Shown here: positions 2,195 through 40,073 of the stretch, piece after piece
How the letters are laid out: every line of letters starts with the position of its first letter
How positions within the stretch are numbered: the first letter of the stretch is position 1
Assembly: GCA_019634625.1 (NCBI GenBank)
Contig: JAHCBA010000003.1
Location: forward strand, 124,001 to 188,000
Reading direction: 5' to 3'
DNA length: 64,000 nucleotides
Origin: Verrucomicrobiia bacterium
GTDB taxonomy: Bacteria > Verrucomicrobiota > Verrucomicrobiia > Limisphaerales > CAIMTB01
The notes under the pieces: model-generated
The model's database searches: none
Told to the model about the DNA's origin: nothing
What the model saw: the letters and a program-made list of their open reading frames with translations, nothing else
Program-made: the position numbers and the translations under genes

Positions 2195-3531
2195 TTGCCC
2201 TCCTTCCTTGGGGTGGCACGGGATAACGGCATGGAAACCCCGGTAAGCAGCTCTAATTGGACCGCAGCTTCCAGCGCCTCCCTTTTGGTGTCCAAGAGAC
2301 CCTCGACCGCATCCAGATACTGCTTCTGGAGCTCCACGTACGTGGATATGGGAACGGCTCCGAGGCGGTAGTGGCGATCGGCGACCTCGGCCGCCTCCCG
2401 GAAGTGCGCCACCGAGTCCGGCCGCCATTTGGCCATCTCCCGGAGCTTCGTCTCATACGTAAGAGCCGTTTCGAGCACTCGACGGGTAACGTCCCTCTGC
2501 GCGAGTTCGTAGGACACCGCGGCCTGGGTCTGTCGCGCCGAAGCCGCCTCGACATTCCCGCGGTTCCGGTTCCAGAAGGGCAGCGGCAGCGAGACAACAA
2601 CGCCGAGAATGCGTTCGCGATCCGATCCAGCGTTCTCCTCGGCGAAAGTGGGACCAAGCGCAACCGCCGGGTAGCGCTCGTTGCGCGCGAGATCGACCCG
2701 GAAGCCCTGTTGGGCGAGTTCGACGGCTCGAACCTTTAACTCGAAGTTGTTCGTGCGGGCCATGGCCAGCAGTTCGTCGCGGTCCTCGGGTGGTCGAAAC
2801 GCCAGGGAGCTATCGGCGATCTTCAACGAGATTTGGGGCGGTGCCCCCCTGAGCTGGTTAAGTTCCAGGAGAGCCGATTGCGTAACCAGGAGCGCTTCGC
2901 TTGCCTTGCGCTGGGCGTTGAGTTCCGTTGCCTCGATGACCCGAATCTCCAGCAGTGGCGTGAGACCTGCCGGGTCGCGCTGGACCAGGACCTCCCTGAG
3001 CGCCTTGAATCGATCAGCCACTTCCGAGGCGGCGGCTGATTTTTCCTCGGCAGCGAAGAGACTGAAGGCGAGGGCTCGAACGCGACCAGCCAGCGCGGTC
3101 TTGAATCGGGCTAGGCCCAGGTTGGCCAACTCGACGTCCTGATTGGCGATGGCTTTGCGGAGTCCGATGCGGCCGGGCCACTCGAAGGGCTGGAGAACCG
3201 ACACCGACCAAGCGACTCCTTCCGCACTCAAACCGCCACCGTCCGCCGTTTTATGGCCGATGGTTCCGGTTAGTTCCGGGTTGCGCCACGCGCCCGCCGT
3301 TCTTCGGCCGGCGGTCGCTGCCGCGATTTCGGCTTCGTAGAACCTGAGTTCCGGATTCTTGGCGAGAGCTTCGTCGACCACGGCCTCCAACGTGGCGGAA
3401 GCAAGTTCAGTGGGTGGGGTATTCGTCGAAGCAATGGCTTGGTGGGCCATCAGATTGAGGACGAGGAGAATCGCGGCGCCCCTTCCGGCGCCGCAGAAAA
3501 TGGGTGCAACAGATAATGGTATTGAAAGCAT
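2191..3531 (-). CDS. TolC-family outer membrane efflux protein (CzcC-like)
   Basis: A 446-residue outer-membrane channel component with an N-terminal signal peptide. The body shows the duplicated helical pattern of OMFs: LEAVVDEALAKNPELRFYEAEI near the start, with the equivalent MARTNNFELKVRAVELAQ in the second half. It also has LPLPFWNRNRGNVEAA, which is typical of CzcC-type channels, and a late YRLGAVPISTYVELQKQYLDAVE helix. It is the first large gene of the operon and overlaps the adaptor by four bases. With the adaptor and the pump it would form a cell-envelope-spanning metal exporter. Confidence 0.92.
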   Translation of the reverse strand: MLSIPLSVAPIFCGAGRGAAILLVLNLMAHQAIASTNTPPTELASATLEAVVDEALAKNPELRFYEAEIAAATAGRRTAGAWRNPELTGTIGHKTADGGGLSAEGVAWSVSVLQPFEWPGRIGLRKAIANQDVELANLGLARFKTALAGRVRALAFSLFAAEEKSAAASEVADRFKALREVLVQRDPAGLTPLLEIRVIEATELNAQRKASEALLVTQSALLELNQLRGAPPQISLKIADSSLAFRPPEDRDELLAMARTNNFELKVRAVELAQQGFRVDLARNERYPAVALGPTFAEENAGSDRERILGVVVSLPLPFWNRNRGNVEAASARQTQAAVSYELAQRDVTRRVLETALTYETKLREMAKWRPDSVAHFREAAEVADRHYRLGAVPISTYVELQKQYLDAVEGLLDTKREALEAAVQLELLTGVSMPLSRATPRKEGK

Positions 3532-3631
3532 GAGCTAGGTGAATGGTTGAATACATGAAAATGAGCCAGCACGGCATGCGGACGCATGCGTACCCGAAAA
3601 TGTGAAGACTCACGCCGAGAGCGTGAGCCGT

Positions 3632-4042
3632 TCAGGAAGCTGCGGAGGGAGCGCGGACAGGGAGGGCGAGACGGAGGGCAAATGCCCAGGAGGTCGACAA
3701 AGGCGGCGGGGGTGCCGCAACCAGTACACCTTCAGACTCCTCGGAGGGAAGTCCGACAGCGAGAACCCCGACATCGATCGGGGGCACGAACTCCGGGCGG
3801 ACATCGGCGACGCGATCCTCCCAGCGAGAAGACTGGTACTTGCCGGATTCCTGAACACAGCAACCGCAATCCTCGCAGGACTTGTTGTCGCTGTGCCCCG
3901 AGTGTTCGTGGTCCGCGCAGCGGAGAAATTCAAGTCCTGGCACGGAAGCGAGCCGACAATGGGCGGTCAATGGCACCCAAACCAGGGCCATCACAAGGCA
4001 CATTACTCGACTGAGCGACTGCACAACAAAAATTGGTAGCAC
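3632..4042 (-). CDS. Small His/Cys-rich secreted protein upstream of the efflux operon
   Basis: A 136-residue protein with a hydrophobic N-terminus (about residues 8-28). A His/Cys cluster (DHEHSGHSDNKSCEDCGCC, about residues 43-62) could bind a soft or borderline metal. The C-terminal part is rich in Pro and Ala and ends in a hydrophobic run. It lies 100 bp upstream of the OMF gene on the same strand, so it is probably the first gene of the czcCBA-like operon. I recognise no family. A metal-binding or sensing role is inferred from composition and position. Confidence 0.55.
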   Translation of the reverse strand: MLPIFVVQSLSRVMCLVMALVWVPLTAHCRLASVPGLEFLRCADHEHSGHSDNKSCEDCGCCVQESGKYQSSRWEDRVADVRPEFVPPIDVGVLAVGLPSEESEGVLVAAPPPPLSTSWAFALRLALPVRAPSAAS

Positions 4043-4103
4043 CAGATCAACCGATGTTCAACTCCTGAACACCGAAAGAGCCTTGCACCCATCGTCGGAC
4101 GTT

Positions 4104-4604
4104 TCAGGCGCTCCCTTTAATCAACCCTTTCTCGACCAGCGCCGCTCGGAGTTCATTGGTGAGGGTGATGACGCTGGCGAGGTCGGTGGCGGCGGCCTGA
4201 TCCGCGTTAGCCCGTTGCGCGCTCGGCGCTGCCCCGTGAAATCCGACCTTCGAGGACGTTCCCGCCCCCATCTGAACCTCCCACGAGAACGCTCCGGCAT
4301 GGCGCTTTAGACCGCCGTCAGCGACATTCAGGATCAGGTACCCGGTCGGGAACGTCCCGCTGGCCGGGTCGGCGCTGACGGTTGCCGGCGCCGTCTGCTG
4401 CCAGGTGCCCGGCGTGCCGGCCACGGTGCAGACGAACTCCGCTCGGTTCTGGTCCCGCCAGAAATCGCCGACGTTCCACGCCCCGGAGGATGGCGGGCCG
4501 TTCAGCGTGTTCGGGGTGCCCTTATGGTAGGTGGGGACTATGGCGAACGGTTCCTCGCAGGCGATGACCCAGTTGTGTTTGGACAGTGGGACGAAGCTGG
4601 GTGC
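4104..4604 (-). pseudogene. C-terminal relic of a phage-like structural protein
   Basis: An open frame of about 166 codons follows a TAG at 4605-4607 and has no good start; a GTG at 4424 would give 106 residues. The text (AWNVGDFWRDQNRAEFVC, then TVAGTPGTWQQTAPATVSA and LKRHAGAFSWEVQMGAGTS) resembles the end of large repetitive phage or prophage tail-fibre-like proteins. That resemblance is from memory of style, not a search. Helical C-terminus LASVITLTNELRAALVEKG. It sits beside the mobile block starting near 5.0 kb, so it is probably a leftover of an earlier insertion. Confidence 0.45.
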
Positions 4605-4662: not shown

Positions 4663-4911
4663 TGAAGCGTAACGTTCCGCACTGGTGTAGGGCGGCATGG
4701 CATTGAGCGCCGCCGCTCGGCACCGGCATGACGGCGACAGAGCACGGCAGGATCAATCCCTCGAACAGTGCGGCGCTTGCCGGCGCTGCTGGCGCGAATA
4801 GGCGCCGGCCCCCTCAAGGCGCAGGTTCAGGAGCCGGTGGCGCCTCCCGAAGGGGCGGTCGCGGGGCCGGCTCCTCGGCATGGACCGGCACGATGAAGCG
4901 TAACGTTCCGC
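4663..4911 (+). repeat. Two identical 18-bp copies of TGAAGCGTAACGTTCCGC
   Basis: The 18-mer TGAAGCGTAACGTTCCGC is at 4663-4680 and again at 4894-4911, in direct orientation and 231 bp apart. Its core AACGTTCCGC recurs with variation at 4991-5002, 5067-5088 and 5107-5119, and on the far side of the mobile block near 12142-12163. The 565 bp from 4605 to 5170 hold no convincing gene. They look like a stack of short related sites, possibly scars of repeated integration at one target. Confidence 0.6.
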
Positions 4912-4985: not shown

Positions 4986-4999
4986 CAAAGGACAACGTT
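4986..4999 (+). repeat. Left copy of CAAAGGACAACGTT, candidate element end
   Basis: CAAAGGACAACGTT here is repeated exactly at 12139-12152. A longer degenerate match, GGACAACGTTCC(C)GC followed by TGGG, links 5068-5088 with 12143-12163. The two sides bracket every gene of the replication-type block (5171-11970), giving an element of about 7.2 kb. No recombinase gene is present to confirm this. Confidence 0.45.
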
Positions 5000-5170
5000 G
5001 CCTCTCCGCGCATCGCGTTGCACGCGAGCAACTTGCGCTGCCAATCGAGGGGCATTGGAGATTTGAGGGACAACGTTCCGCACTTGGGCGACGCGCACAC
5101 GTGGGTCGAACGTTCCCCCTTATGTGTACGCGATGAAAATGTCCGACATGAAACCGAAGGAGATGACCCG

Positions 5171-5521
5171 ATGAGCACCGCCCTCGAAGAACTGATGCAC
5201 GCCGCCCTGGCGGCCGCCCCGAACCGCCGGGACGACGCCCTCGCCGTCCTGCGCGGCCAACTGGCAGCGATCGATCCCGCGAAGACCGCGCCCACCCATG
5301 AACCCTACCTGACCCTTCGCGAGGTCGGGCAACGCCTCGGCATCAGCGCCGCAACGCTCTGGCGGTGGCAGGTGCCCGGCCATTCCCTCGGCGGTCGCCG
5401 ACGGTTCCGGCTGTCCGAGGTCGAGGCCTACCTGAAAACCGAGGCCTTCGAACGTCGGGCGGCAGCGCTGCGGGCCGACCGGAAACACCACGCCAAACGC
5501 GGTGGCGATCCCAAGGCCTGA
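5171..5521 (+). CDS. Excisionase/MerR-like helix-turn-helix protein
   Basis: A 116-residue protein. Residues about 55-100 (LTLREVGQRLGISAATLWRWQ, then GGRRRFRLSEVEAYLK) form a classic excisionase-type winged helix-turn-helix, as in AlpA/Xis or MerR N-termini. The start at 5171 is set by AAGGAG eight bases upstream. A 13-codon open frame beginning at 5133 ends in a TGA that overlaps this ATG, and could be a leader peptide. As first gene of the block it probably controls the element or directs its excision. Confidence 0.75.
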   Translation: MSTALEELMHAALAAAPNRRDDALAVLRGQLAAIDPAKTAPTHEPYLTLREVGQRLGISAATLWRWQVPGHSLGGRRRFRLSEVEAYLKTEAFERRAAALRADRKHHAKRGGDPKA

Positions 5522-5678
5522 TCGAAGCCGAAATGTTCAACAACTTGCTTGACCGGGGTGGCGGCAAGAACGCGTTGCACAGCGTTTCAAAGTGGGACCA
5601 GGAACGCTCCACAGTGTTGCACAGTGCGACCCACTGAGACCCAAACCACCGTCCACGCCATTTTGATACTCTCCCCTC

Positions 5679-5975
5679 ATGACCGCTAACTCTACCAACC
5701 CACCCGTCCCCGCCCGCGAACTCGCCAAGCAACTCCTCCAGGAGGAGGCCAAAGGAATGCCGGTCTGGGTCCGCGCCCCCACCGACGGCCACGAGCACTT
5801 CACCGGGCTGACCCGCGCCAAGCTCTACGAACTGGCCGGAAAGGGGCACATCCGTTCGGTCTCGTTGCGCGAACCCGGCAAGGTCAAGGGCTGCCGCCTC
5901 TTCAACCTCCAAAGCATGCTCGACTACATCGCGAAGATGGAGGCCCAGGCCGGCAGCGATCAATCGCCCGCGTGA
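5679..5975 (+). CDS. Second small HTH protein of the mobile block
   Basis: A 98-residue protein whose central part (FTGLTRAKLYELAGKGHIRS followed by GCRLFNLQSMLDYIAKM) matches the excisionase or AlpA-type pattern: a helix-turn-helix reading 'xLTRxxLYxLxxxGxI', a wing, then a helix. The N-terminus is a helical arm. The gap before it (5522-5678) carries two direct repeats of GTTGCACAG[C/T]G at 5574-5584 and 5614-5624, plausible operator half-sites for one of these HTH proteins. The primase gene follows 25 bp downstream. Confidence 0.68.
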   Translation: MTANSTNPPVPARELAKQLLQEEAKGMPVWVRAPTDGHEHFTGLTRAKLYELAGKGHIRSVSLREPGKVKGCRLFNLQSMLDYIAKMEAQAGSDQSPA

Positions 5976-6000
5976 TCGCGGGAAACGGAGAAGCCCTCCC

Positions 6001-8205
6001 ATGGCCATCCTTGCACCAGATCCCGAAGCCGTCGTTGAGTCCCCGCCCATCATGGAGCGGGAGCCGACGTCCGAGGAACCCACGCCGCTCCTTGGCCGCC
6101 CGGTCTCGATGTATGGGAACGCCTTCAGCAAGGAGCCGCAGGATGTCGCGCTGGGGAAAATCCTCGTGGCCATTCGCAATGGACGCTGGGCAAAGCGGAT
6201 TGGAGAGCTTCGTGTGCTCTTGGCTCGCGATCGGGCGGCCTACGACCGCGAAAAACGAGCCCTCCCAGCCTTTGCGATGTCGGGGACCGCGGAGACGCGC
6301 AAGGGGCAACAAAGCCATACGGGGCTTATCCAAGTCGACATGGACCACCTCGGCGGCGATCTGGCGACCGTCCGAGAACTGGTCAAAGCCGATCCGCACA
6401 TCGCCTTCGGGTACGTGTCTCCCTCCGGCGAGGGACTGAAACTGGGCCTGCGCATCGATCCTGACCGCCACGAGGAAAGCTTCGCGGCCGCCGAGGTCTA
6501 CTTCCGCGAATGCTATGGCCGAGACATCGACAAGAAGGTCAAGGACCGCCTCCGGCTCTGCTTCGTCAGCCACGATCCGGACCTCTGGGTTCGCGAGGAC
6601 GCTATTCCGCTTCCGATCCCGGAGCCGAAGCCCGAGGCCCCTCCGCGCACCAGTCCACCCGTTGCCAAGGCAGCCGCCACGCCCACGGCCGAGGGAGAGC
6701 CGGGCAACATCGTGATCCTGCCATCTGGCGGGGTTTCGTTCAGCGAGGCAGCCCAGGAGATCTTCTCTCGGCTCGCCCCGGCCCGAACGATTTTCTGGCG
6801 CGGTGGCGCCCTGGTTGAGCGGGTGGATTACGATGGTATTGCCGGCCTGGAAATCCTCCGCCCCGAGGCCTTCCGGAGCCGCGTCGAGAAGATCGGCCGT
6901 CTGATGGCCTGGCGCGTCGGCGACGACGGTCAGCCAACCCTCAAGCCAACCCGGTTGCCCCGGGACGACGCCACGGCACTGATGGCGACCACCGAAGCCC
7001 GGGAACTTCTCCCCCCAATCGCCAGCGTCCTGCGCTGCCCCGTGCTGATTGAAAAGAACGCAAACGAGGTCGCGGTTCTCGGCGAGGGCTACCACGCGGA
7101 ACTCGGAGGCCTGCTGATTGTCGCCGGAGACGCTCCGCCGCAGTTCCCGCCTGAGCACGCCTCCCTGCTCCTGAACTCGCTCATCGCTGAATTCGACTTC
7201 CAGTCGCCCGGCGACCGGAGTCGCGCCCTGGCGGCATTCCTGACCCCCGCGCTCCGCATGGGCGGGCATCTGAAGGGCTCGGTGCCCATCGACTGCGCTG
7301 AGGCCGACCAGAGCCAGAGCGGCAAAGGCTACCGCCACCACCTCGTCGCGGCCCTGTACGGCGAGAGCGCTTATTTCGTCACCGCCCGCCAAGGCGGTGT
7401 CGGCAGCGTGGACGAGTCCTTCGCCGCCGCCATCATCTCCGGTCGCCCCTTCATCTGCCTCGACAATTTCCGCGGCCGGCTCGACTCGCAGCACCTCGAG
7501 GCGTTCCTGACGTGCCCAACCCTGTTCCCAGCGCGAGTTCCCCACCGTGGGGAAGTCATGATCGACCCCAAGCGGTTCCTCCTCCAGATGTCGAGCAACG
7601 GGCTGGAAACCACCCGCGACCTCGCCAACCGCGCCAGCATCTGCCGGATTCGCAAGCGGCCAGGCTTTCGCTACCGCGACACCCTCGGCGAGCTTCAGCG
7701 GCTCCAGCCCACGTTCCTGGGGGCGGTGTTCTCGCTGGTCACGGCCTGGATCGCCGCCGGGAAGCCTCGGACGGACGAGACCCGCCACGACTTCCGCGAA
7801 TGGTGTCAGGTCGTCGACTGGATCGTGCAGAACCTGATGGGCGGGGCTCCGGTCATGGAAGGTCACCCGGCGGCGCAAGAGCGGGTCGCCAATCCAGCCC
7901 TTGTCTGGGTCCGATCGATCGCTCTGGCGCTGGAAGGCGAGAAACGGCTCGGGGAGTCGCTCAACGCCACCGGCCTCGCCGAGATCTGCGCAATGCACGA
8001 CATCGAGATCCCAGGGCTGAAGGAAAAGGCAGACGGCGACATGGCCAAGCGACAGGTCGGCTCCCTCCTGCGGCGAGTGTTCCAGGACGCCGACCTGGTC
8101 CAGGTGGACGGATTCGATGTCCGCCGATCCCAACAGACGTACCGGAAGCCATCCGGCGACGCCGACACGATGCGGACCTACACCTTCGACCGGACGCCAA
8201 AATGA
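6001..8205 (+). CDS. Primase/helicase-type replication protein (BT4734-like N-domain plus ATPase)
   Basis: A 734-residue protein, the largest of the mobile block. Residues about 40-200 (LGKILVAIRNGRWAKRIGEL, GLIQVDMDHLGGDL, AFGYVSPSGEGLKLGLRI) resemble the BT4734/VirE N-terminal primase-polymerase-like domain found in phage and plasmid replication proteins. The second half has a P-loop-like SQSGKGYRHHL (about residue 440) and a Walker B-like RPFICLDNFRG (about 480). A Pro-rich linker near residue 210 separates the two. ATG at 6001 follows a GGAG. It probably starts DNA synthesis for the element. The assignment rests on motif resemblance only. Confidence 0.78.
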   Translation: MAILAPDPEAVVESPPIMEREPTSEEPTPLLGRPVSMYGNAFSKEPQDVALGKILVAIRNGRWAKRIGELRVLLARDRAAYDREKRALPAFAMSGTAETRKGQQSHTGLIQVDMDHLGGDLATVRELVKADPHIAFGYVSPSGEGLKLGLRIDPDRHEESFAAAEVYFRECYGRDIDKKVKDRLRLCFVSHDPDLWVREDAIPLPIPEPKPEAPPRTSPPVAKAAATPTAEGEPGNIVILPSGGVSFSEAAQEIFSRLAPARTIFWRGGALVERVDYDGIAGLEILRPEAFRSRVEKIGRLMAWRVGDDGQPTLKPTRLPRDDATALMATTEARELLPPIASVLRCPVLIEKNANEVAVLGEGYHAELGGLLIVAGDAPPQFPPEHASLLLNSLIAEFDFQSPGDRSRALAAFLTPALRMGGHLKGSVPIDCAEADQSQSGKGYRHHLVAALYGESAYFVTARQGGVGSVDESFAAAIISGRPFICLDNFRGRLDSQHLEAFLTCPTLFPARVPHRGEVMIDPKRFLLQMSSNGLETTRDLANRASICRIRKRPGFRYRDTLGELQRLQPTFLGAVFSLVTAWIAAGKPRTDETRHDFREWCQVVDWIVQNLMGGAPVMEGHPAAQERVANPALVWVRSIALALEGEKRLGESLNATGLAEICAMHDIEIPGLKEKADGDMAKRQVGSLLRRVFQDADLVQVDGFDVRRSQQTYRKPSGDADTMRTYTFDRTPK

Positions 8206-8210
8206 ACGCA

Positions 8211-8304
8211 GCTCCACCCAACCACCCTAGTCCACCCAACCCCTATAACTTTCTTACAAATTGGAATCATCAATATGTAGGGAGTTATAGGGGTTGGGTG
8301 GAGC
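8211..8304. repeat. 19-bp perfect inverted repeat with AT-rich loop, candidate replication origin
   Basis: CCACCCAACCCCTATAACT (8232-8250) is perfectly inverted at 8283-8301, with a 32-nt AT-rich loop in otherwise GC-rich DNA. A second left arm, GCTCCACCCAACC (8211-8223), also pairs exactly with 8292-8304, so the right arm can form two alternative stems. It begins 6 bp after the primase stop and ends before the next ribosome-binding site. Position and structure fit an origin or initiator-binding site, or a structured mRNA switch. It has no U-run, so it is not a typical terminator. Confidence 0.6.
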
Positions 8305-8341
8305 TGGGGTTTCCCGGGTGGAGCACGGTCTGGAGGTCGTC

Positions 8342-8776
8342 ATGGACCTGAAACGCCGAGCCCGGGATTACCTGGCCCAGTTACCCCCAGCCGTCTCCGG
8401 CAGCCGTGGCCACGACACCACGTTCACCGCCGCGTGCTGGCTCGTCCGGTTCGGACTTCGCGACCGGGACGCGATGGCGTTGCTGCGGGACTTCAATGAA
8501 CGCTGCCAGCCGCCATGGACCGAGAAAGAACTGGCTCACAAACTCGACGATGCCAGGAAGATCGTCGGACCGACCCTCCCCCGTCCCCTTGGCGCCGCTC
8601 CGGCCGTTCGAGAGACCTGGAGCCTCGAACCTTACCACCGCTGGCTGGCTCATCTGATGCCCACCCCAGCGACCTCGGAATTCCTCTCTTCAAAGGCGGC
8701 TGGAATCGAATCCGTGGCGAGTGCCTCGGATTCCGAACCCGCCACCAACCCCAACCATCAATCGCACCTCCTGTGA
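8342..8776 (+). CDS. Primase C-terminal-like (PriCT-type) helical protein
   Basis: A 144-residue protein. The start is set by GGAGG at 8332-8336, five bases before ATG. Residues about 15-75 (GHDTTFTAACWLVRFGLRDRDAMALLRDFNERCQPPWTEKEL followed by AHKLDDARKI) match the small helical domain often found at the C-terminus of plasmid and phage primases and in bifunctional DNA primase/polymerases. Here it stands alone, directly after the primase gene and the hairpin, so it may be a split-off subunit or origin-binding partner. The C-terminal 50 residues are Pro/Ser/Thr-rich and look disordered. Confidence 0.68.
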   Translation: MDLKRRARDYLAQLPPAVSGSRGHDTTFTAACWLVRFGLRDRDAMALLRDFNERCQPPWTEKELAHKLDDARKIVGPTLPRPLGAAPAVRETWSLEPYHRWLAHLMPTPATSEFLSSKAAGIESVASASDSEPATNPNHQSHLL

Positions 8777-8976
8777 CCCACACCTACCATCACGTCTTCG
8801 CCAACGGGACCAAGGCCACCGCCACCATCGGCACCGATCCGGTCCGGTACGAGGTCGAGTGGGATGGCCCAGGATCGAGGAATCTTCTCCCGGAATACCG
8901 CCGATGGCGGCAATTCATCTTCGAGGACTTCGCGAAGAGAACCGGAAGGCAACTCGCTGTCGTCGAACGCTGGTGA
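8773..8976 (+). CDS. Small conserved-looking protein, 67 residues
   Basis: GTG at 8773 overlaps the preceding stop as GTGA, implying translational coupling. The peptide (THTYHHVFANGTKATATIGTD, then YEVEWDGPGSRNLLPEYRRWR) looks like a small beta-sheet followed by a helix, the shape of many small phage-replication-module proteins. No family is recognised. Evidence is the overlap, codon usage like its neighbours, and the sensible fold pattern. Confidence 0.5.
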   Translation: MTHTYHHVFANGTKATATIGTDPVRYEVEWDGPGSRNLLPEYRRWRQFIFEDFAKRTGRQLAVVERW

Positions 8977-9086
8977 CCATTCCTTGGCCCATTTCCGCCC
9001 CGGCCCCGGGTTGCCGACGGGCGGCGGACATTCCCGGCTCGTGCCTGACTGTCCGCGGTGAACCGAACCCGAAGCCAAGAACCACC

Positions 9087-9437
9087 ATGACCCCGAATCC
9101 ATCCCCCAACCACCAACACCCCCGCGTCGAGGTCGACTTCGGTCGGCTCGCGCTCGTCGTCAAAGGCCCGACGCCCTGCGAGATCGACCTTGAACGCTGC
9201 ACCGATCCAGCCCGGCTGCTCCACTTGGTCCTCCACGTCTCGACCAAGCCCTGGTGCGACCGCGCCTTGGCCGGCGAGATGCTGGCGGCCTTGGAAACCG
9301 CCAGCCGGTCGGAGTTCGGCCGCCCGGCGCAACAAGTCTACTGCCCGAGCGGACGCCCACAGCACGTTGACTGGGATGCCGCCCGGTTCACCGAGATCAG
9401 CTACGGCCCCAGTCCCGTTCCTGCCGTCGTAGGCTGA
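9087..9437 (+). CDS. Hypothetical protein of the mobile block, 116 residues
   Basis: A 116-residue protein with no recognised family. It begins with a His/Pro-rich stretch, then VEVDFGRLALVVKGPTPCEI and a helical core (LLHLVLHVSTKPWCDRALAGEMLAALETASR). Same strand as the replication genes, with GC-rich third codon positions, so it looks genuinely coded. A leaderless or weakly initiated ATG at 9087 is used; no Shine-Dalgarno is visible. Confidence 0.55.
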   Translation: MTPNPSPNHQHPRVEVDFGRLALVVKGPTPCEIDLERCTDPARLLHLVLHVSTKPWCDRALAGEMLAALETASRSEFGRPAQQVYCPSGRPQHVDWDAARFTEISYGPSPVPAVVG

Positions 9438-9822
9438 CCGGACTCCGCCCCGGTACCGCCTGCCTCTGCCTGCGAGACGCGCCGCCGCGTTCGTTGGCGG
9501 TGGTCTACTTGCCTGCCGCCTACGGCCGGCGAGGACCGCCTTCTCGCGGGGGAGGCACCGGTCCTCGTCAGGAGTGTCAGGGATGGAAGGAATCTTTTTC
9601 CTACCCCCGGTGGGGTGGAGGTGTGGCGTCAGCCCCGAATGCGCACGCGAACGAACGAAATTCGAAAAAACGCGCACCATGTCACGGAATCGCTCGAAAA
9701 ACCCAATGAAACCAGGTCAACGCGCGAGCGCGGTGGCCCAAAATCGGCCAGCGTTCTCGACCGGCGTCCGACAGGACCCCGGGACTTCCAGACCTTGCAC
9801 TGCCACCCCAGCCCCCTGACCG
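9438..9822. other. Intergenic stretch without a convincing gene
   Basis: About 385 bp between two genes of the mobile block. It has no convincing reading frame. An AT-richer patch near 9645-9675 (acgaacgaacgaaattcgaa) may be promoter DNA for the downstream HTH/terminase-like gene, but no good -35/-10 pair is evident. Confidence 0.4.
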
Positions 9823-10464
9823 ATGCCAACACCCGGAACCATTTCCGCTGCCCAACTCGCCAAGCTGTCCGGCCTCTCCGAACGCCAGCTCCGACGCCAC
9901 GCCGACGACGGTTGGTTTCCCCGGCCCGTCAAGAACGAGTACCTGCTCGTTCCGGCCATCCAGGGCCTCCTGCGCTACTACCAAGAGCGCGAGCGCACGT
10001 CGGAATTGCATGACGAGTACGACTGCTTCTCGGCCTGCGAAGCCGCCACGGGCATCCCGATGGCGGCACTCCGGCGCGCCAAGCGGCGGCGTTGCTCGGC
10101 TGTCCGGGACGGAAAGGTCCGATTGGCCGCGTTCCTGCGCTGGTGGCACGTCACCGATCAGCCCCAGGCGATCAGCTACGAGGTCGAGCGGGCCGCCCAG
10201 GTCCTGCTCCAGAACGAGAAGCTGCGGGTGATCATCCGGCGGATGAAGCGCGAGTTGGTTTCGGCACGTGAGGTCTCCCACCTCGGCGCCGAACTCGGGG
10301 CGGCAATCCGAAAACTCGTAACGCGCATCCACCGGATGGCTCCCTCGCTGGCAGGCCACGACGTCGCGACCATCGAGAAACGGCTTCAGGACGAGGAAGC
10401 CGACATCGTCGCCCAACTGCGGATCGTCGATGACCGGGTGAGCACCTGGCGGCAGGCAGAGTAA
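9823..10464 (+). CDS. HTH protein resembling phage terminase small subunit
   Basis: A 213-residue protein. Residues 7-40 (ISAAQLAKLSGLSERQLRRH followed by ADDGWFPRPV) are a Nu1-type winged helix-turn-helix. A second HTH-like segment lies near 65-85 (SACEAATGIPMAALRRAKRR), and the C-terminal half is a long charged helix (LLQNEKLRVIIRRMKRELVS). DNA-packaging small subunits have this layout: an N-terminal HTH plus a coiled-coil oligomerisation region. No large terminase, portal or capsid gene is nearby, so it may instead regulate or partition the element. Confidence 0.62.
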   Translation: MPTPGTISAAQLAKLSGLSERQLRRHADDGWFPRPVKNEYLLVPAIQGLLRYYQERERTSELHDEYDCFSACEAATGIPMAALRRAKRRRCSAVRDGKVRLAAFLRWWHVTDQPQAISYEVERAAQVLLQNEKLRVIIRRMKRELVSAREVSHLGAELGAAIRKLVTRIHRMAPSLAGHDVATIEKRLQDEEADIVAQLRIVDDRVSTWRQAE

Positions 10465-10510
10465 ACGACACTGGTTCATTGCCGGGCGCGCCGCTTACGA
10501 GGCTCGCTGT

Positions 10511-10945
10511 ATGGACCTTGCCTCGATCCCTGAAACCATCCGCACCATCATCACCCAAGCTGGAGGCCTCGGCCTCCGCGGGGCCTTCACCTACATCGGC
10601 GCGCAAGAGTTCCTCTACCGCTGCGCCCAAGCCGAGGGCGAATACCGTTCCGGCTTTCGATCCCGACTCACCTCGGAAGGTGGTCCGCCCCGCGTCGAGT
10701 TCGACGTTGGGTTGCAGGCGCGGGTGAACGGGAAGCCCGGCCGGGCATGGACGCTCATCATCGTCTACGAACCCGACGACACTTACACGGTGTGGCTCGT
10801 CGAGGGGCACGCCCGACGGAAGGCCGAATCCATGGTGTTGGCCTGCGTCCTCGACGTGTACTGCGACACATTGCAGTCCGTGATCGAGGAGGCCTACGAC
10901 CGCGCCATCACCGAGCACAATGGCGGCTTCATCCCCTTGGGCTGA
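10511..10945 (+). CDS. Hypothetical protein upstream of the RadC-like gene
   Basis: A 144-residue protein with no recognised family. An N-terminal helical part (LASIPETIRTIITQAGGLGL) is followed by a beta-rich body (VEFDVGLQARVNGKPGRAWT and LIIVYEPDDTYTVWLVE). Its stop lies two bases before the ATG of the RadC-like gene, so the two are co-translated and may work together. Small proteins paired with RadC-like JAB proteins are common in mobile elements; that is general knowledge, not proof here. Confidence 0.6.
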   Translation: MDLASIPETIRTIITQAGGLGLRGAFTYIGAQEFLYRCAQAEGEYRSGFRSRLTSEGGPPRVEFDVGLQARVNGKPGRAWTLIIVYEPDDTYTVWLVEGHARRKAESMVLACVLDVYCDTLQSVIEEAYDRAITEHNGGFIPLG

Positions 10946-10947
10946 CC

Positions 10948-11445
10948 ATGAGCGAGACACCTCCCCGTCGCCGTCGTTCGAAGGACAACCACGAGTTCGG
11001 CGTCGTCCGCCTTCGTGAACTGCCGGTGCCCATAGCCTGCTGCGATTCCCCGGACCGCATCTACGACTACTGGATGGCGAACATCGCGACCGCCGTCTGG
11101 TACAGCCAAGAAGTGGAAAGCCTCTGCGTGATCCACCTCAACACCCGGCGGCGGGCAACCGGCTTCCACCTCGCGGGCATCGGCACGCTCGACACCGTCC
11201 TCATGTCCCCGCGTGAGGTCTTCCGGACGGCGATCCTGAGAAACGCCTCGGCCATCGTGGTCGCCCATTCTCACCCCAGCGGTGACCCGCGGCCCTCCGA
11301 ATCCGACATCAGGGCGACCCGGGAACTCGTTCAGGCGGGCCGGATCATCCGCATCGAGGTCCTCGATCATGTCGTGATCGGACAGTCCGGTCCCGATCAC
11401 CCGCGCCCGTGGGCGTCATTACGGGAGATGGGCCTCTTCTACTGA
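10948..11445 (+). CDS. RadC/JAB-domain protein (MPR-type)
   Basis: A 165-residue JAB/MPN-fold protein. The metal site is VVAHSHPSGDPRPSESD (about residues 105-122), giving the H-x-H-P-S-G-D pattern of RadC. An upstream Glu in the domain (EVESLCVIHLNTRRRATGFH) and the end (RIEVLDHVVIG) also fit. It lacks the N-terminal helix-hairpin-helix of chromosomal RadC, as is usual for versions carried on plasmids, phages and integrative elements. Function of such proteins is not settled. Here it supports the view that 5-12 kb is mobile. Confidence 0.85.
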   Translation: MSETPPRRRRSKDNHEFGVVRLRELPVPIACCDSPDRIYDYWMANIATAVWYSQEVESLCVIHLNTRRRATGFHLAGIGTLDTVLMSPREVFRTAILRNASAIVVAHSHPSGDPRPSESDIRATRELVQAGRIIRIEVLDHVVIGQSGPDHPRPWASLREMGLFY

Positions 11446-11556
11446 GCCGGCCCCATGGAATCCTCGGAGAACCCTTGGACACTCTCACCGCCTCACCGTA
11501 GCGAGACTCACGTTCGGAGCGGATCAACCAAAACCCCCGCCCCGCCAAAGACCAAC

Positions 11557-11970
11557 ATGAAGAAGACCACCGAAGCCACCCAGACCCCGAAGACCACGAC
11601 CACGCCCGAGCCGAAGGCCGCCAAGGCCAAGAAGGCGACGCCGGCCCCGGCGACCGAGCAGCCCGCAACCCAGCCCACCGCCGCTCCGGCGAAGGTCGAA
11701 AAGTGTACGAAGCCTGCCAAGGCGGCGAAGTCCGACGCCGACGGCGAAACCACCGACCGGCTCCCCACCACCCTCGACGAGTTGAAGGAGACCAAGGGCG
11801 GGTTCGTCGCCTACCAGTTCCTCACCGGCAAGGACCGGGATGCCATCGCCAAGGACCTTGCCGCCGCCTTCAAGCTCGGCGAAGCGCAGGCCGCCAAGAT
11901 CGTCCGCCGCATCACCGGCCGCGTCCGCCTCTACGCCCGGGTGTTCGAACTCGTGCCGGCGAAGAAGTAG
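11557..11970 (+). CDS. Lys/Ala/Pro-rich DNA-binding-like protein
   Basis: A 137-residue protein. The first 65 residues are a low-complexity Lys-Ala-Pro-Thr tail like those of histone-H1-like bacterial proteins. The C-terminal 70 residues form a small helical domain (LDELKETKGGFVAYQFLTGK, then IAKDLAAAFKLGEAQAAKIV). A basic disordered tail plus a compact domain suggests a nucleoid- or element-DNA-binding role, though this is inference. It is the last gene of the block and is followed at once by a terminator. Confidence 0.6.
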   Translation: MKKTTEATQTPKTTTTPEPKAAKAKKATPAPATEQPATQPTAAPAKVEKCTKPAKAAKSDADGETTDRLPTTLDELKETKGGFVAYQFLTGKDRDAIAKDLAAAFKLGEAQAAKIVRRITGRVRLYARVFELVPAKK

Positions 11971-11991
11971 CCCCCAGCACAGCGCCACGAC

Positions 11992-12020
11992 GCCCCTCGG
12001 ACGACCCCGCGGGGCTTTTT
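11992..12020 (+). terminator. Rho-independent terminator of the mobile block
   Basis: GCCCC (11992-11996) pairs with GGGGC (12011-12015), followed directly by TTTTT (12016-12020). Flanking GACG and CGTC bases can extend the structure. It lies 22 bp after the last stop of the block and fits the end of a transcript running from about 5.2 kb. Confidence 0.6.
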
Positions 12021-12026
12021 GGCGTC

Positions 12027-12384
12027 CAGACGGGCAGGCGAGACTGCCGCGAGGCAGGCCGAGGACCGGGGTAGGAGCGGTTTTCCGGCCGCGGCACGTA
12101 GGTCCACCGGCCTTCCGGCAGGAAAACCAGCGAGGCGCCAAAGGACAACGTTCCCGCCTGGGGTGTGCGAAATGCTCGACACCCCATGATCGAAGGCTTC
12201 TGCGGCGCCTGCAAACCCACCGACCGCCGGACCCCTTGGCATTCCCTCCGAAGATCTCACCACACGGAAGTCAAGCAATGCTCATGATTTGCCAAGAAAT
12301 GGCCAAGGGCCCCGATGCAGTAGCCGCGTAATAATAGGAGGAGGGGCGTACGCCCCGAACCGAGCACCATCGAGGGATCTGAAC
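12027..12384. other. Right junction of the mobile block, no gene seen
   Basis: This 358-bp stretch holds the right copy of CAAAGGACAACGTT (12139-12152), the likely edge of the mobile block, and then the upstream region of the secreted-repeat gene. I see no convincing coding sequence. A GGAGGAGGGG at about 12337-12346 is too far from the ATG at 12385 to be its ribosome-binding site. Confidence 0.45.
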
Positions 12385-14372: not shown

Positions 14373-17300
14373 TCATGACGAGGCAGAGCTTGCGCCGGCT
14401 GCGGGCGGTGCATCGGCGACTTGGTGAGCCAGTCTTTCCCATTGAACGAATTGCATGCTCAATTCCTCCCATTTCTTGCGTGGCGGGCGAGGCCCCTTGA
14501 TCCACTCTACCTGGCGACCGCGCCAGAGCGAATAGATCGCCGGCACGATTTCCAGGGTTAGGATCGTGCTGGTGATGAGTCCTCCAATCATAGGCGCGGC
14601 GATTCGCTGAATTGCCTCCGCGCCTGCGCCGTGCGCCCAAAGCGCGGGCACCAAGCCCATCGTGACCATGGCAACCGTCATGAGCTTCGGCCGTACCCGC
14701 TGAACCGCGCCATAAGTGATCGCCTCAAAAAGGTCATGTTGTGTCTTCATTCGACCGGCCTTCTGGTAAGCGTGAAAGGCCTCGTCCAAGTAGATGATCA
14801 TGACCGTTCCGGTCTGTGCTGCCAGGCCCGCCAAGGCAATAATTCCCACCCATACGGCGATGCTGAGATTGTAGCCAAGGAACCAGAGCAACCATATGCT
14901 CCCCGTCATGGCGAACGGGATGGATAGCAGGATGATGAACGTCTCGGCGACGCTCTTGAAGTTCATGTAGAGGAGGACGAAGATCAGGGCGAGAGTCACC
15001 GGAACTACCACCTTCAGCCGATCCCGCACGCGGAGCATGTGTTCGTACTGGCCCGACCATTCGAACCGATAGCCCGATGGCAGGAGTCCTGGTTTCTCGA
15101 TTTTTTCCTCCACCGCCTTCTTCGCATCGACCACATAACTGCCGATGTCCCGGCCGGCCATGTCCACATAGACCCATCCGGTCAGAGCTCCATCCTCGTT
15201 ACGGATGACCGGCGCTCCGCTTGTGGTCTTCATTTCAACCAGTTGCCCTAGCGGTATCTGGCGAACAGCGCGCGATGCGCTGCCTCCGGGTGAGGTCGAC
15301 ATTCCCTCCTGGGATCCGCGCGAGTTCACATCCGCCATTGCAGAATCGACTGGCACCAGGACACGCCCCAACTTGTCGACGTCGTCGCGAAGCTCCCGGC
15401 TGTAACGCACACTGATGGAGTATCTTTCCCGGCCTTCGATGGTGCGCTCGAACGCCATTCCCCCGATGGCGGTTTCCACCAGCATGAGCACGTCCTCGAC
15501 GTTCAGGCCATAGCGTGCGATGGCATCCCGTTTCGGGATGATGTCCAGGTAGTATCCCCCCGTAGTTCGCTCGGCATAGACGCTCCGTGTGCCGGGCACC
15601 TGGCGGATCACCGACTCCAAGTGCTCCCCGAGTTTGCCAATTTCACCCAGATCGGGGCCGAAGATCTTGATACCGATCGGTGTTCGAATGCCTGTCGTCA
15701 GCATGTCGATGCGGGCCTTAATGGGCATGGTCCAGGCATTCACTTGACCGGGAATCTGCAGCGCATCATCCAACTCGGTCACGAGTTCATCCTTCGTGAT
15801 GCTGCGCAGTTCCGGCCAGACCAGGCGCAGGCCGGACTTCGCCCAATCGGGTGCCCAACGGGAGTACCACCGCTGCACAGGGACTGTTCGCCATTCCTTC
15901 TCAGGCTTGAGTTGAACAACACTCTCAAACATTTCGAGCGGCGCGGGATCGGTGGCGGTTTCGGCGCGTCCGGCCTTTCCGTGGACGCTGACGACCTCGG
16001 GGAACTGCTTGATAATGCGATCCTGAATCTGCATCAAGCGAGTCGCCTCGGTGATCGAAATCGTCGGCAATGTAGTGGGCATATACAGAATTGTGCCCTC
16101 ATCGATGGGCGGCATAAATTCTGAGCCCAGCTTCTTGTAGATGGGTACAGCCGAGCCGACGGCGATCAGGGCAAGAACGATCGAGAGAATCCGACGGGTC
16201 ATTAACATGCTGACCCATGGATAGTAGATCCGGTGCAGAATACGGCTGATGGGGTGCTTGTGTTCGGGGATGACTTTGGCACCGGTCATGAGGACGATGA
16301 GGGCCGGACCAATGGTCACCGAAAGGAAGGCCGCCCAGGCCATGGTGAATGTCTTCGTGAACGCCAGGGGCTTGAAGAGTCGGCCCTCCTGGGATTCGAG
16401 AGTAAACACCGGCATGAAACTCACGGTGATGACCAGGAGCGCGAAGAACAGCGGTTTCCCCAGCTGCTTGCAGGCTTTGATAATGATTTCCTGCTTCTCC
16501 TTGCGGTTTAGCCCGGGCGGCGCGTGCTCCAGGTGCTTGTGGACATTTTCCACCATCACCACGGCTTCGTCGCAGATTGCGCCAATGGCGATCGCGATGC
16601 CAGCGAGGGACATGATATTGGCGGTGAGTCCCATATAGTACATGGGAATGAAGGCCAGGGCGACCGCAACTGGCAGAGTGATGATCGCGCGAAGGGCGCC
16701 TCCAAAATCTAACAGGAAGACAATGACAATAATCGAGACAATGATGGACTCTTCGATGATGGTCCGCGTCAGGGTCTGGATCGACCGGTTGATCAGATCG
16801 GAGCGATCATAGGTCGTCACGATCTCCACCCCCGGCGGGAGTGAAGGTTTGACCTCTTCCAGTTTCGCTTTGATGCTCTCGATGACTTGGAGGACGTTCT
16901 GCCCGAAGCGGACCACGACGATACCTCCCACGGTTTCTCCCTCGCCGTTCAATTCCCCCGCACCACGGCGCATCTCGGGCCCCAGTTCAATCTTGCGGGC
17001 TACATCGCGCAGCAAGACCGGAGTACCCTTGAAGTCGGCGCCCACGACCACGAGTCGGAGATCCTCCAACGATTTGATGTACCCATGGCCACGAATCAGA
17101 TAAGTGGTGCCGAAGCGCTCCAGTTCGCGTCCGCCCACGTCGTTGTTTGCGGCGCGGACCGCCGAGAAGATCTTCGTGATTGGAATCCCGTACGCCAGAA
17201 GCTTGTTGGGATCGATGTCGATCTGGTATTGCTTCTGGAAGCCTCCATAGGTCGCCACCTCGGCTACACCCTCAACACTTTGAATCCAGTAGCGCAAGTG

Positions 17301-17834
17301 CCAGTCCTGGAAGGAGCGCAATTCCGCCAGGTCGTGCTTTCCGCTCTTGTCCACAAGGGCGTACTGGAAGCCCCAGCCGACACCCGTCGCATCCGGGCCG
17401 AGGGACGGGGTAACCCCCGGAGGCAGGCTTTCCGTAAGGCCCTGCATGTACTCCAACACGCGGGACCGGGCCCAATATATGTCAGTTCCGTCGTCGAATA
17501 CTGCATAGACGAACGAGTAACCGAAGAACGAATACCCGCGCACGACCTTCACTTTGGGCGCGGAGATCAACTTGGTGACGATCGGATAGGTGATCTGATC
17601 CTCGACCAAATTCGGGCTCCGACCTTCCCATTGGGAGAACACGATGACCTGGACGTCCGACAAATCAGGAAGGGCGTCGAGGGGGGTGTTGCGCATCGTG
17701 AACACACCGGCCAGCGTCAACGCTCCCACCAGCATGAACACCATGAATTTGTTGCGGGCACTCCACTCGATCATGCGCTCGATCAGGGACTCCTTAAGAG
17801 GCGCAGAGTTGGCAGATTGAACCATGTCGGACAT
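14373..17834 (-). CDS. cusA: Copper/silver RND efflux pump, CusA-like
   Basis: A 1153-residue inner-membrane proton antiporter of the heavy-metal RND family. The start (MIEWSARNKFMVFMLVGALT) and VFDDGTDIYWARSRVLEYMQ match CusA. Helix 4 contains GIAIAIGAICDEAVVMVENV with the proton-relay Asp. The three periplasmic Met positions that carry Cu(I)/Ag(I) in E. coli CusA appear present as LYMPTTLP, DPAPLEMFES and MPIKARIDM. This favours monovalent copper or silver over divalent metals. It is the last gene of the minus-strand OMF-adaptor-pump operon (19351-20751, 17858-19303). Confidence 0.94.
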   Translation of the reverse strand: MSDMVQSANSAPLKESLIERMIEWSARNKFMVFMLVGALTLAGVFTMRNTPLDALPDLSDVQVIVFSQWEGRSPNLVEDQITYPIVTKLISAPKVKVVRGYSFFGYSFVYAVFDDGTDIYWARSRVLEYMQGLTESLPPGVTPSLGPDATGVGWGFQYALVDKSGKHDLAELRSFQDWHLRYWIQSVEGVAEVATYGGFQKQYQIDIDPNKLLAYGIPITKIFSAVRAANNDVGGRELERFGTTYLIRGHGYIKSLEDLRLVVVGADFKGTPVLLRDVARKIELGPEMRRGAGELNGEGETVGGIVVVRFGQNVLQVIESIKAKLEEVKPSLPPGVEIVTTYDRSDLINRSIQTLTRTIIEESIIVSIIVIVFLLDFGGALRAIITLPVAVALAFIPMYYMGLTANIMSLAGIAIAIGAICDEAVVMVENVHKHLEHAPPGLNRKEKQEIIIKACKQLGKPLFFALLVITVSFMPVFTLESQEGRLFKPLAFTKTFTMAWAAFLSVTIGPALIVLMTGAKVIPEHKHPISRILHRIYYPWVSMLMTRRILSIVLALIAVGSAVPIYKKLGSEFMPPIDEGTILYMPTTLPTISITEATRLMQIQDRIIKQFPEVVSVHGKAGRAETATDPAPLEMFESVVQLKPEKEWRTVPVQRWYSRWAPDWAKSGLRLVWPELRSITKDELVTELDDALQIPGQVNAWTMPIKARIDMLTTGIRTPIGIKIFGPDLGEIGKLGEHLESVIRQVPGTRSVYAERTTGGYYLDIIPKRDAIARYGLNVEDVLMLVETAIGGMAFERTIEGRERYSISVRYSRELRDDVDKLGRVLVPVDSAMADVNSRGSQEGMSTSPGGSASRAVRQIPLGQLVEMKTTSGAPVIRNEDGALTGWVYVDMAGRDIGSYVVDAKKAVEEKIEKPGLLPSGYRFEWSGQYEHMLRVRDRLKVVVPVTLALIFVLLYMNFKSVAETFIILLSIPFAMTGSIWLLWFLGYNLSIAVWVGIIALAGLAAQTGTVMIIYLDEAFHAYQKAGRMKTQHDLFEAITYGAVQRVRPKLMTVAMVTMGLVPALWAHGAGAEAIQRIAAPMIGGLITSTILTLEIVPAIYSLWRGRQVEWIKGPRPPRKKWEELSMQFVQWERLAHQVADAPPAAGASSASS

Positions 17835-17857: not shown

Positions 17858-19303
17858 TCAGTGCTGATGTCCACCCGCTGCACCCATGCCGGCGATGGCA
17901 GCCTTTAGTTGGCTCTCCGAGTCCACAAGAAAGAGGGCGCGGGTCACCACTCGCTCGCCCTCGCGGAGGCCGGACACCACTTCGTAGAAATCATCGGTCT
18001 TGGTGCCGATCTTGACCTCCCGTGGTTCCAGACGCTCTTCCGGCCCATCGACGAAAGCCACATATCGCTTTCCGGTGTCGATCAACGCGCTGGCAGGGGC
18101 CGTCAATCGCTCGCCGACCTTGATCTCCAGATCCACATTAGCCCACATGTCCGGCCGCAGTCTGTGGTGCGGATTGTCGATTTCCAGCCGCACCTCCCCA
18201 CGGCGCGACTGGGGCTCGATATGGGGATAGATGAATGTGACCGAAGCGGGGAAGGACTCATCGTTCAGATAGGGGAAGTTGATGGTGGCCTCCTGGCCGA
18301 GCTCGATGAGGGGAAGCTCGGATTCGTACACATAGGCACGCAGCCAGACGTGCGACAGGTCGGCAATCTCGAACAAGGATTCCCCGGCCATGAATGCCTT
18401 CCCGTCGATGGCATTCTTCACCAAGACGTGGCCGGAGAGCGGCGCTCGGAACAACAACTCGGAACTGGGCCTTCCCCGCTTCTCCAGTTCACGAATCTCC
18501 TCCTCCCCGATCTCGAAGAGCGCGAGGCGCAATCGGGCGGACTCCAGCAGGGCCTCGGCCGAATCCCGTTGCTGGCTATTGGCCGAGTTCATACTTTGCT
18601 GTGAGCCTCGCCACGCGATGAGGTATTCGCTTTCGGTTGAGAAGAGCTCCGGGCTGTAGACGGTGAAGAGCGGTTCACCCTTCTCGACGGGAGCTCCGGT
18701 GAAGTTCACGTGCAGCTTCCGCACCCAACCGGCGAATCGGGGGGCGATCTTGGCGTAGCGTCGCTCATCGTGTTCCACCAATGCGGCCGTCCTCAGCGTC
18801 CGTGTGAGATTTCGCTTCTCCACCTTGGACATTGTTAGTCCGATCAATTGCCGTTTGTCGGGTGAAAGGCTAATGGAGATTCTGCCTGGCACCGTGGTTC
18901 CTGCCGCGCTCTCCGAATGGCCCTCGTGCCCCGTTGGCGGAGCCTTCTTCTCTACCAGCTTCATGTTGCACTCCGGGCAAGTCCCTGGGGCATTGCTCAC
19001 CACATTCAAATGCATGGGACAGTAAAACTGACCGGGGTTGATATGCGCCGTCTTGGAATCGGCCGTCGTCGTCGAAGCAGCGGCCGGCTTGTCGCCCTTG
19101 ATCGGGACCAGCTTCATATTGCAGATGGGACAGTCCCCGGGCCGGTCGCTCACGTAGGTGGGATGCATCGGGCAGTGGTACTTCTGCTTGCCGGCCGCGC
19201 CAGACTGCTCGTGGCCGCCGGAGGGATCGCCGCAGCCCGTCAGGACAGCGCCGAAGGCAAAGGTAACGACCGCAGCCAGAATTAAACTCAGTCGAAATCG
19301 CAT
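17858..19303 (-). CDS. cusB: Copper efflux periplasmic adaptor, CusB-like with two CPMHP metal-binding domains
   Basis: A 481-residue lipoprotein adaptor; lipobox VLTGC near residue 24. Two heavy-metal-binding domains follow: YHCPMHPTYVSDRPGDCPIC plus NMKL (about 40-70), and FYCPMHLNVVSNAPGTCPEC plus NMKL (about 88-115). HlyD features come next: WVRKLHVNFTGAPVEKGEPL, the lipoyl half RAPLSGHVLVKNAIDGKAFM, and the barrel (ALIDTGKRYVAFVDGPEERL). It ends HQH. ATG 19303 gives the signal peptide. The CPMHP domains probably hand Cu/Ag to the pump 23 bp downstream. Confidence 0.93.
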   Translation of the reverse strand: MRFRLSLILAAVVTFAFGAVLTGCGDPSGGHEQSGAAGKQKYHCPMHPTYVSDRPGDCPICNMKLVPIKGDKPAAASTTTADSKTAHINPGQFYCPMHLNVVSNAPGTCPECNMKLVEKKAPPTGHEGHSESAAGTTVPGRISISLSPDKRQLIGLTMSKVEKRNLTRTLRTAALVEHDERRYAKIAPRFAGWVRKLHVNFTGAPVEKGEPLFTVYSPELFSTESEYLIAWRGSQQSMNSANSQQRDSAEALLESARLRLALFEIGEEEIRELEKRGRPSSELLFRAPLSGHVLVKNAIDGKAFMAGESLFEIADLSHVWLRAYVYESELPLIELGQEATINFPYLNDESFPASVTFIYPHIEPQSRRGEVRLEIDNPHHRLRPDMWANVDLEIKVGERLTAPASALIDTGKRYVAFVDGPEERLEPREVKIGTKTDDFYEVVSGLREGERVVTRALFLVDSESQLKAAIAGMGAAGGHQH

Positions 19304-38483: not shown

Positions 38484-38539
38484 AAATTGGTTGCGGGGCT
38501 AGGATTTGAACCTAGGACCTTCAGGTTATGAGCCTGACG
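38484..38539. repeat. 56-bp direct repeat, distal copy (att-like)
   Basis: These 56 bp are identical to 39993-40048. They cover the 3' end including CCA, the T arm, the variable loop and the anticodon arm of the initiator tRNA, plus four bases beyond. After the repeat the sequences diverge. Duplicated tRNA 3' ends are the normal footprint of integrative elements, so this is a candidate att site and element boundary. Confidence 0.75.
38488..38539 (-). tRNA. Truncated initiator tRNA-Met (3' part only)
   Basis: On the minus strand this reads CGTCAGGCTCATAACCTGAA and on to a CCA end, with anticodon CAU. The D arm and 5' acceptor strand are missing or unrecognisable: the next 25 bases run into the stop end of the gene at 38555. 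It is a non-functional fragment created by duplication of the tRNA 3' end. Confidence 0.75.
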
Positions 38540-39253: not shown

Positions 39254-39406
39254 CTAAGGCTTTAGGGCCAAGACTTTTCCGTTGGATTGAACGTGGATGG
39301 GGGTGCCGTACCGGCGGGCGACGACGCGTGCCTGCCTCGCGGCCCGTCTCAGTGCCCGTGCCGCCGCCTTGGCGAGGACGGTTCGGGGCTTCAGGCTGGG
39401 TTTCAT
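39254..39406 (-). CDS. 50-residue basic protein overlapping the zeta-like toxin gene
   Basis: ATG 39406 overlaps the stop of the zeta-like gene as ATGA, so it is translationally coupled. The peptide is highly basic (MKPSLKPRTVLAKAAARALR, then RAARQARVVARRYGTPIHVQ) and ends NGKVLALKP. The strand-like end GTPIHVQSNGKVLAL resembles tiny partners found beside stand-alone zeta-type kinases. It could be the antidote or an accessory. It falls below common gene-length cut-offs and is easily missed. Confidence 0.6.
   Translation of the reverse strand: MKPSLKPRTVLAKAAARALRRAARQARVVARRYGTPIHVQSNGKVLALKP

Positions 39407-39992: not shown

Positions 39993-40073
<81 letters not shown>

Follow-up and report, generated by a model that had tools for sequence, protein, structure and literature searches.

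The 7.2-kb gene block at positions 4986-12152 of the window (the whole 64,000-nt stretch analysed, C3:124001-188000 of a 6.74-Mb genome, G000) is not free-standing but forms the core for replication and packaging within a virus-derived, 46.5-kb island inserted at a tRNA-Met gene (island B). A first-pass annotation had proposed a 7.2-kb integrative element or phage satellite bracketed by a 14-bp repeat, CAAAGGACAACGTT. The kind of element that it envisaged is upheld by phage-derived genes, a small terminase (TerS), the lack of large terminase (TerL) and capsid genes, and mobility, whereas its size and its ends are not. Our best reading of the sequence, about evenly balanced between right and wrong, is that of a helper-sized, prophage-derived, satellite-like island, for which packaging by a helper phage is inferred.

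The tRNA-Met locus and the ends of the mobile unit

Four copies of a 47-bp stretch from the 3′ half of tRNA-Met, all 100% identical, are found at C3:68937, 115992, 162486 and 163995. Island B (46,494 bp, C3:115992-162486) lies between the second and third of these att copies, in tandem behind prophage A, which spans the 47,055 bp between the first and second. Positions 1-38532 of the window belong to B, whose start is located 8,009 bp further left, at C3:115992; the right att occupies positions 38486-38532 and the intact target gene, tRNA-Met (CAT), positions 39997-40073, both on the minus strand. Just inside the left att lies the B integrase gene (C3:116171-117739, plus strand). The integrases of A (C3:69117) and B are of the tyrosine type, 522 amino acids each and 71% identical, and the B sequence shows readable catalytic motifs (R, HxxR, H and Y). 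Island B accordingly possesses the integrase and the attL/attR pair within a host genome that are expected of a satellite.

These ends are incompatible with a self-contained 7.2-kb block. No integrase is encoded inside it, and prophage homology extends past both repeats, to an inverted tail-end gene and efflux operon on the left (2209-4600) and to the start of TerL on the right (12186-12241). Moreover, cross-species identity starts at the tRNA-Met att, 13 kb left of position 4986, and another cross-species match extends into the right-end tRNA-Met, so that the att copies, and not the repeats, delimit the mobile unit. The GC content is 65.6% for the B core, 65.5% for A, 61-62% for the cargo and 67-68% for the flanking chromosome.

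Prophage A is a complete siphoprophage with an integrase related to that of B and an identical att. It encodes the integrase, a BsuBI/PstI-type restriction enzyme, a PD-(D/E)XK nuclease, PolA-like and ParB-like proteins and a methyltransferase (MTase), the last three being named from our reading of their sequences, followed by TerS, o70, RadC, TerL, portal, protease, major head, major tail, tape measure and tail proteins.

Some further features of the region were recorded. A CzcCBA-type efflux operon lies between the last tail gene of A and its right att (C3:109420-115992), and two more tail-end remnants of the A lineage are located left of A (C3:60998-62213 and 64668-66801), so that related elements seem to have accumulated in a long tandem row at tRNA-Met. 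The 1.5 kb that separate the right att of B from the intact tRNA-Met hold a P-loop protein (window 39403-39942) that by eye resembles a zeta-type kinase. GC skew, close to zero up to 41 kb, jumps to values of about +0.2 to +0.4 for the rest of the window (41000-64000). Elsewhere, up to 13 o70 matches occur in the genome G181 (on C3, C7, C9, C12, C13, C39 and others), which contains several prophages of the lineage in complete form and several in broken form; G231 and G209 are likewise listed.

Core genes, hairpin and metal cargo

From the left att, B carries the integrase, P-type ATPase and RND efflux genes, an inverted prophage end and a motif cluster, then xis, a second HTH gene, the PrimPol-helicase gene, a hairpin, PriCT, o67, o68 and a ParB-leader remnant, and finally TerS, o70, RadC, a basic protein, a TerL stub, RND/CusB, multicopper oxidase and P-type ATPase genes, and the right att (gene calls were made with a simple codon-usage script). 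The one-directional block, the HTH_17, PriCT and RadC/JAB domains and the TerS-like protein that had been annotated in the core all proved real.

On the plus strand, the core opens with an excisionase-like HTH_17 protein (xis, 5171-5521; PF12728, phrog_66), 53% identical to its prophage A counterpart at the amino acid level, and a second HTH protein (5679-5975; weak HTH_17) conserved in the genomes G099, G069 and G231. These are followed by a fusion of a BT4734-like N-terminal PrimPol and a helicase ATPase (6001-8205; PF08800, phrog_18375), whose match to NF040562 PrimPol_Db (E 1.3e-17) falls under that model's curated cut-off, by a PriCT_1 protein (8318-8776; PF08708), and by the conserved proteins o67 (small; 8773-8976) and o68 (9087-9437). 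Positions 9585-9675 retain a remnant of the ParB leader of prophage A (85.7% to C3:85258-85348); the ParB and MTase genes themselves are absent. When the primase was searched against IMG/VR, neither a B-type contig nor any relative was returned.

The small terminase (TerS, 9823-10464) was recognized by its phrog_57 match (E 3.7e-11) and by its position before o70/TerL, as in full prophages; this profile match and synteny make it a candidate for the packaging-redirecting gene of a satellite. Its predicted model displays a tandem HTH-like N-terminus and long helices at medium confidence (pLDDT 68, pTM 0.33), too low to support a fold search. Searches against solved structures yielded nothing useful. 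Relative to the TerS of A, the protein has diverged over its full length (N-terminal half 48%, C-terminal half 52%); the pattern of a redirecting TerS, in which the DNA-binding half is diverged and the TerL-binding half conserved, is absent, both halves being divergent. Downstream follow the lineage-marker protein o70 (10511-10945), found in 9/293 genomes of the order, a RadC/JAB protein (10948-11445; PF04002, E 2.6e-33) with 96% amino acid identity to that of prophage A, a Lys/Ala-rich protein with a conserved C-terminus (11557-11970), and a terL stub (12186-12241, beginning MIEGFCGACKP), after which no more of TerL and none of the head genes is present. Apart from this stub, B contains no TerL, portal, major capsid or tape measure gene, nor any other head or tail morphogenesis gene. 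As expected of a satellite, it is devoid of virion-structure genes, the sole remnant being a truncated tail-end gene. The core genes of B are under purifying selection: dN/dS ranges from 0.05 to 0.27 against the G069 copy, and the B core reading frames are intact.

A very long hairpin (8206-8325, plus strand) between the primase and PriCT genes, already annotated in the first pass, was substantiated by a folding z-score of -9.9. Similar hairpins (z -6 to -12), several with different stem sequences, lie 3′ of primase genes in eight further elements carried by other genomes of this order (L083, L084, L085, L086, L054, L055, L057 and L063), and primase- or PriCT-like genes occur in about one-sixth of the genomes of the order. 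Sub-gathering Rfam matches to the hairpin (MIR1508, mir-616) were dismissed as chance, as for any long hairpin. The PrimPol-helicase and PriCT proteins, assigned by profile, and the conserved hairpin form the putative replication set of B, with the hairpin a likely replication origin or priming site, and the nine elements together a candidate origin family.

Metal efflux genes occupy the space of the lost particle genes in B. Positions 2209-4600 (minus strand) hold an inverted copy of a prophage right end (blastn 73.6% to C3:108924-111331, inverted), which comprises the C-terminal part of the tail-end gene o48 (4104-4600) and CzcC/CzcB-type efflux genes with an OEP domain, the efflux block extending leftward beyond the window start; the segment thus corresponds to a cut o48 plus a CzcCBA-type operon from the right end of an A-like prophage. 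Right of the core, the minus strand encodes an RND efflux pump (14373-17834; PF00873), a CusB-like fusion protein (17858-18778; PF16576), a multicopper oxidase (30990-32501) and a heavy-metal P-type ATPase (33842-36001).

Compared to phages of the A lineage, B shares the att site, integrase family and regulatory motif with A and with the IMG/VR siphophages 3300048834_001270 and 3300050333_000099, and has the same order of xis, TerS, o70, RadC, basic-protein and TerL genes. In contrast to A, which has PolA-type replication and the complete set of ParB, MTase, head and tail genes, B carries the PrimPol-helicase, hairpin and PriCT instead and is without that set; the full head, packaging and tail gene complement of a complete temperate phage of this lineage is lacking.

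A single-strand motif underlying the repeats

The exact 14-bp repeats reported by the first-pass annotation do exist, CAAAGGACAACGTT being present at positions 4986-4999 and 12139-12152, with no further copies in the window even when up to two mismatches are allowed (0.26 expected). However, they belong to a motif with a wider distribution. Its core GGACAACGTTCC has 11 copies genome-wide, nine of which are confined to 51 kb (C3:85053-136154) on a single strand (binomial P ~4e-18), and seven of these nine lie outside the window, at C3:85053-94677, inside the complete prophage A. A shorter core, AACGTTCC, is found with other left halves at window positions 4667, 4898, 5068 and 5105. Across 27 related phage and island stretches (600 kb), the family-wide form (GGAC|GCGT)AACGTTCC, with its GGAC and GCGT types, is present 63 times on the transcribed strand and absent from the opposite one, against a chance expectation of 0.08 per strand.

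On the plus strand of B, the motif is represented by GCGTAACGTTCC at 4667-4678 and 4898-4909, CAAAGGACAACGTTGC at 4986-5001 (the left repeat), GGACAACGTTCC at 5068-5079, the motif-like GTCGAACGTTCC at 5105-5116, 66 nt upstream of the xis start, and CAAAGGACAACGTTCC at 12139-12154 (the right repeat), ~35-50 nt upstream of the TerL start. In related prophages and IMG/VR contigs, equivalent places hold GGACAACGTTCC or GCGTAACGTTCC, including a cluster upstream of xis; the distances are ~270 nt to ParB, 35-50 nt to the TerL start, 51 nt to o27, ~46 nt to the protease gene and ~37 nt to the scaffold gene. The position directly upstream of the ParB, terminase, o27, protease and scaffold genes makes a phage-specific promoter or operator the most likely reading of the motif, and the two CAAAGGACAACGTT repeats of B would act as such elements flanking the xis operon and the terL stub. 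By eye, several copies are followed 3′ by a TATAGGT/TATAAGT-like sequence.

Other assignments were discarded. Single-strand recurrence at fixed gene junctions rules out att or integron-like sites. A standard sigma-70 promoter (TTGAAG ... TATAGG, by eye) would have a spacing of just 14 nt, and no class was therefore assigned. The notion of a genome-specific repeat, the type I exact 15-mer being near-absent from other genomes, was dropped once the GCGT variant revealed the family-wide motif.

The one-orientation pattern with phage-specific variants is known from mycobacteriophage stoperators (PMC6550527). Like those of Cluster A phages, the motif is short, asymmetric, in a single orientation relative to transcription, near gene boundaries and present as phage-specific variants of a single core (PMC6550527). 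Unlike them, it has only ~3-8 copies per phage, most of them 35-270 nt ahead of a gene start, and several copies precede a TATAGGT-like sequence, which is a better fit to promoters.

Transfer between species and the nature of island B

The comparison genomes are draft assemblies. In G099, of the same genus (rpoB 84.3%), the left 6.8 kb of a B-type island are found on contig C134 and the rest on C91, the two disagreeing across their 283-bp overlap. From the att rightward they differ from B by about 4 mismatches in ~17.5 kb (3 in 6.5 kb up to a noisy contig end, then 1 in 11.0 kb), as opposed to 35 mismatches in the 150 nt left of the att. The identity boundary thus coincides exactly with the att, which points to site-specific integration after transfer. 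From ~11 kb on, C91 becomes more divergent (83% further on); its cargo is partly different, and its own right att copy lies near C91:38.3 kb. A 1.9-kb insert on the opposite strand separates terS and o70 (G099:C91:11951-13859). At the other end, contig C804 of G120 (rpoB 85.1%) matches the right end of B at 3308/3308 positions, into the intact tRNA-Met, and then continues into its own flank; in G013, the tRNA has a terminator-like flank and no neighbouring element arm.

A more distant copy in G069 (rpoB 82.2%), on two contigs with a 137-bp exact overlap, consists of the integrase, different cargo, the core at 86%, the TerL stub, further cargo and tail genes; it has lost its RadC and the N-terminal half of its TerS but kept some tail genes. 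Because half of TerS is lost there, not every B-type copy is functional. In G231, the core up to TerS is conserved at ~58-72% amino acid identity. The inverted block, core and terL stub are common to G099 and G000. Intact terL shares 81-85% identity with the TerL stubs of G099 and G069, both matches ending at the same position within 2 nt, and the stub of B is shorter; the sequence behind the stubs differs, which indicates cargo turnover. By these sequence comparisons, gutting preceded the spread of the B-type island, and B has been transferred recently between species in its gutted form, probably as a passenger of a related phage.

Phage satellites are defined as non-phage elements that promote their own packaging into the particles of phages, and their origin from defective prophages has been proposed (PMC11389934). 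In the model we favour, the ancestor of B would have been a temperate siphophage of a lineage like A that lost TerL, bar the stub, and its head and tail morphogenesis genes, the freed space being filled with metal-efflux cargo. The integrase (C3:116171-117739) and Xis would excise the island, the PrimPol-helicase and PriCT would replicate it, probably from the hairpin, and its own TerS would steer it into particles of an A-type helper. A complete A-type prophage is present in G000, and G099 has TerL and portal relatives (96% and 81% like it, respectively). The size parity of B and A (46.5 versus 47.1 kb, two measured elements) would suit unaltered helper heads. On paper, B works like a satellite. 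Against this reading, known satellites typically reach about one-third of helper size (PMC10803314), whereas B equals its putative helper (46,494 versus 47,055 bp); the divergence of TerS from that of A along its whole length and the lack of a B-type match to the primase in IMG/VR also count against it, and the G069 copy displays signs of decay as seen in decaying prophages.

The latter point favours a cargo-laden prophage in decay with no helper-dependent cycle, its interspecies matches reflecting occasional transfer by generalised transduction, competence or the integrase of another element. We consider this possible, if rather doubtful: tail-gene remnants lie in tandem nearby (C3:60998-62213, 64668-66801), copies are broken in many relatives (G181, G231) and half of TerS is gone in G069, but the core reading frames of B are intact with low dN/dS, its integrase, Xis and att are preserved, and the cross-species identity starts exactly at the att. 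Conjugative islands typically carry large metal-resistance cargo, as does B, and an autonomous island with passenger phage genes, moved by other machinery such as a co-resident conjugative element, was also weighed; this is unlikely, since the conserved genes are those of phage replication and packaging, and inspection of the B reading frames revealed no relaxase or mating genes (cargo partly Pfam-scanned). As for a self-contained 7.2-kb element recombining at CAAAGGACAACGTT, the two repeats are indeed exact and exclusive within the window. Nevertheless, this version is extremely improbable, given the missing integrase, the identity and homology that pass straight through both repeats, and the true att sites elsewhere. 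The first-pass annotation had itself named repeats without the block as grounds for rejection, and the motif does recur at fixed junctions of full prophages that lack the block.

Overall, the satellite-like reading of B extends, tentatively, to a novel family of Verrucomicrobiota satellites as large as their helpers: gutted prophages that may have kept integration, hairpin-primed replication and TerS, filled up with metal-resistance operons to about phage length, and that would be carried by a sister phage sharing the tRNA-Met site. A full-text search of one literature collection for phage satellites with TerS found no paper on this phylum. Intermediates between defective prophages and satellites are rarely seen; here, a putative parent-type phage, a gutted island and broken relatives are found together at a single tRNA, and the gutted form has itself passed between species. 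If helper-packaged, B would represent a phage-sized vehicle for metal-resistance operons in this phylum, and the motif and the conserved hairpin offer starting points for tests of how genes are controlled and DNA is replicated in phages of this lineage.

Like PICI and other TerS-bearing satellites, B combines an integrase with att sites, an excisionase-like HTH protein, a primase-type replication gene and TerS, has no capsid or tail morphogenesis genes and resides with a helper-like prophage. It differs from PICI-type satellites in being helper-sized (46.5 kb) rather than about one-third (PMC10803314), in its large metal-resistance cargo, in a TerL stub and tail-gene remnant that show direct descent from the phage lineage, and in its Verrucomicrobiota host. 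The minimalist marine satellites PICMI, which need no more than an integrase, a regulator and a primase to excise and replicate and which are packaged to full helper length, resemble B in having no capsid remodelling genes (PMC10803314). In contrast to B, however, PICMI are ~6 kb, fill the head as a concatemer and have no TerS, whereas the B unit is itself phage-length and carries a TerS.
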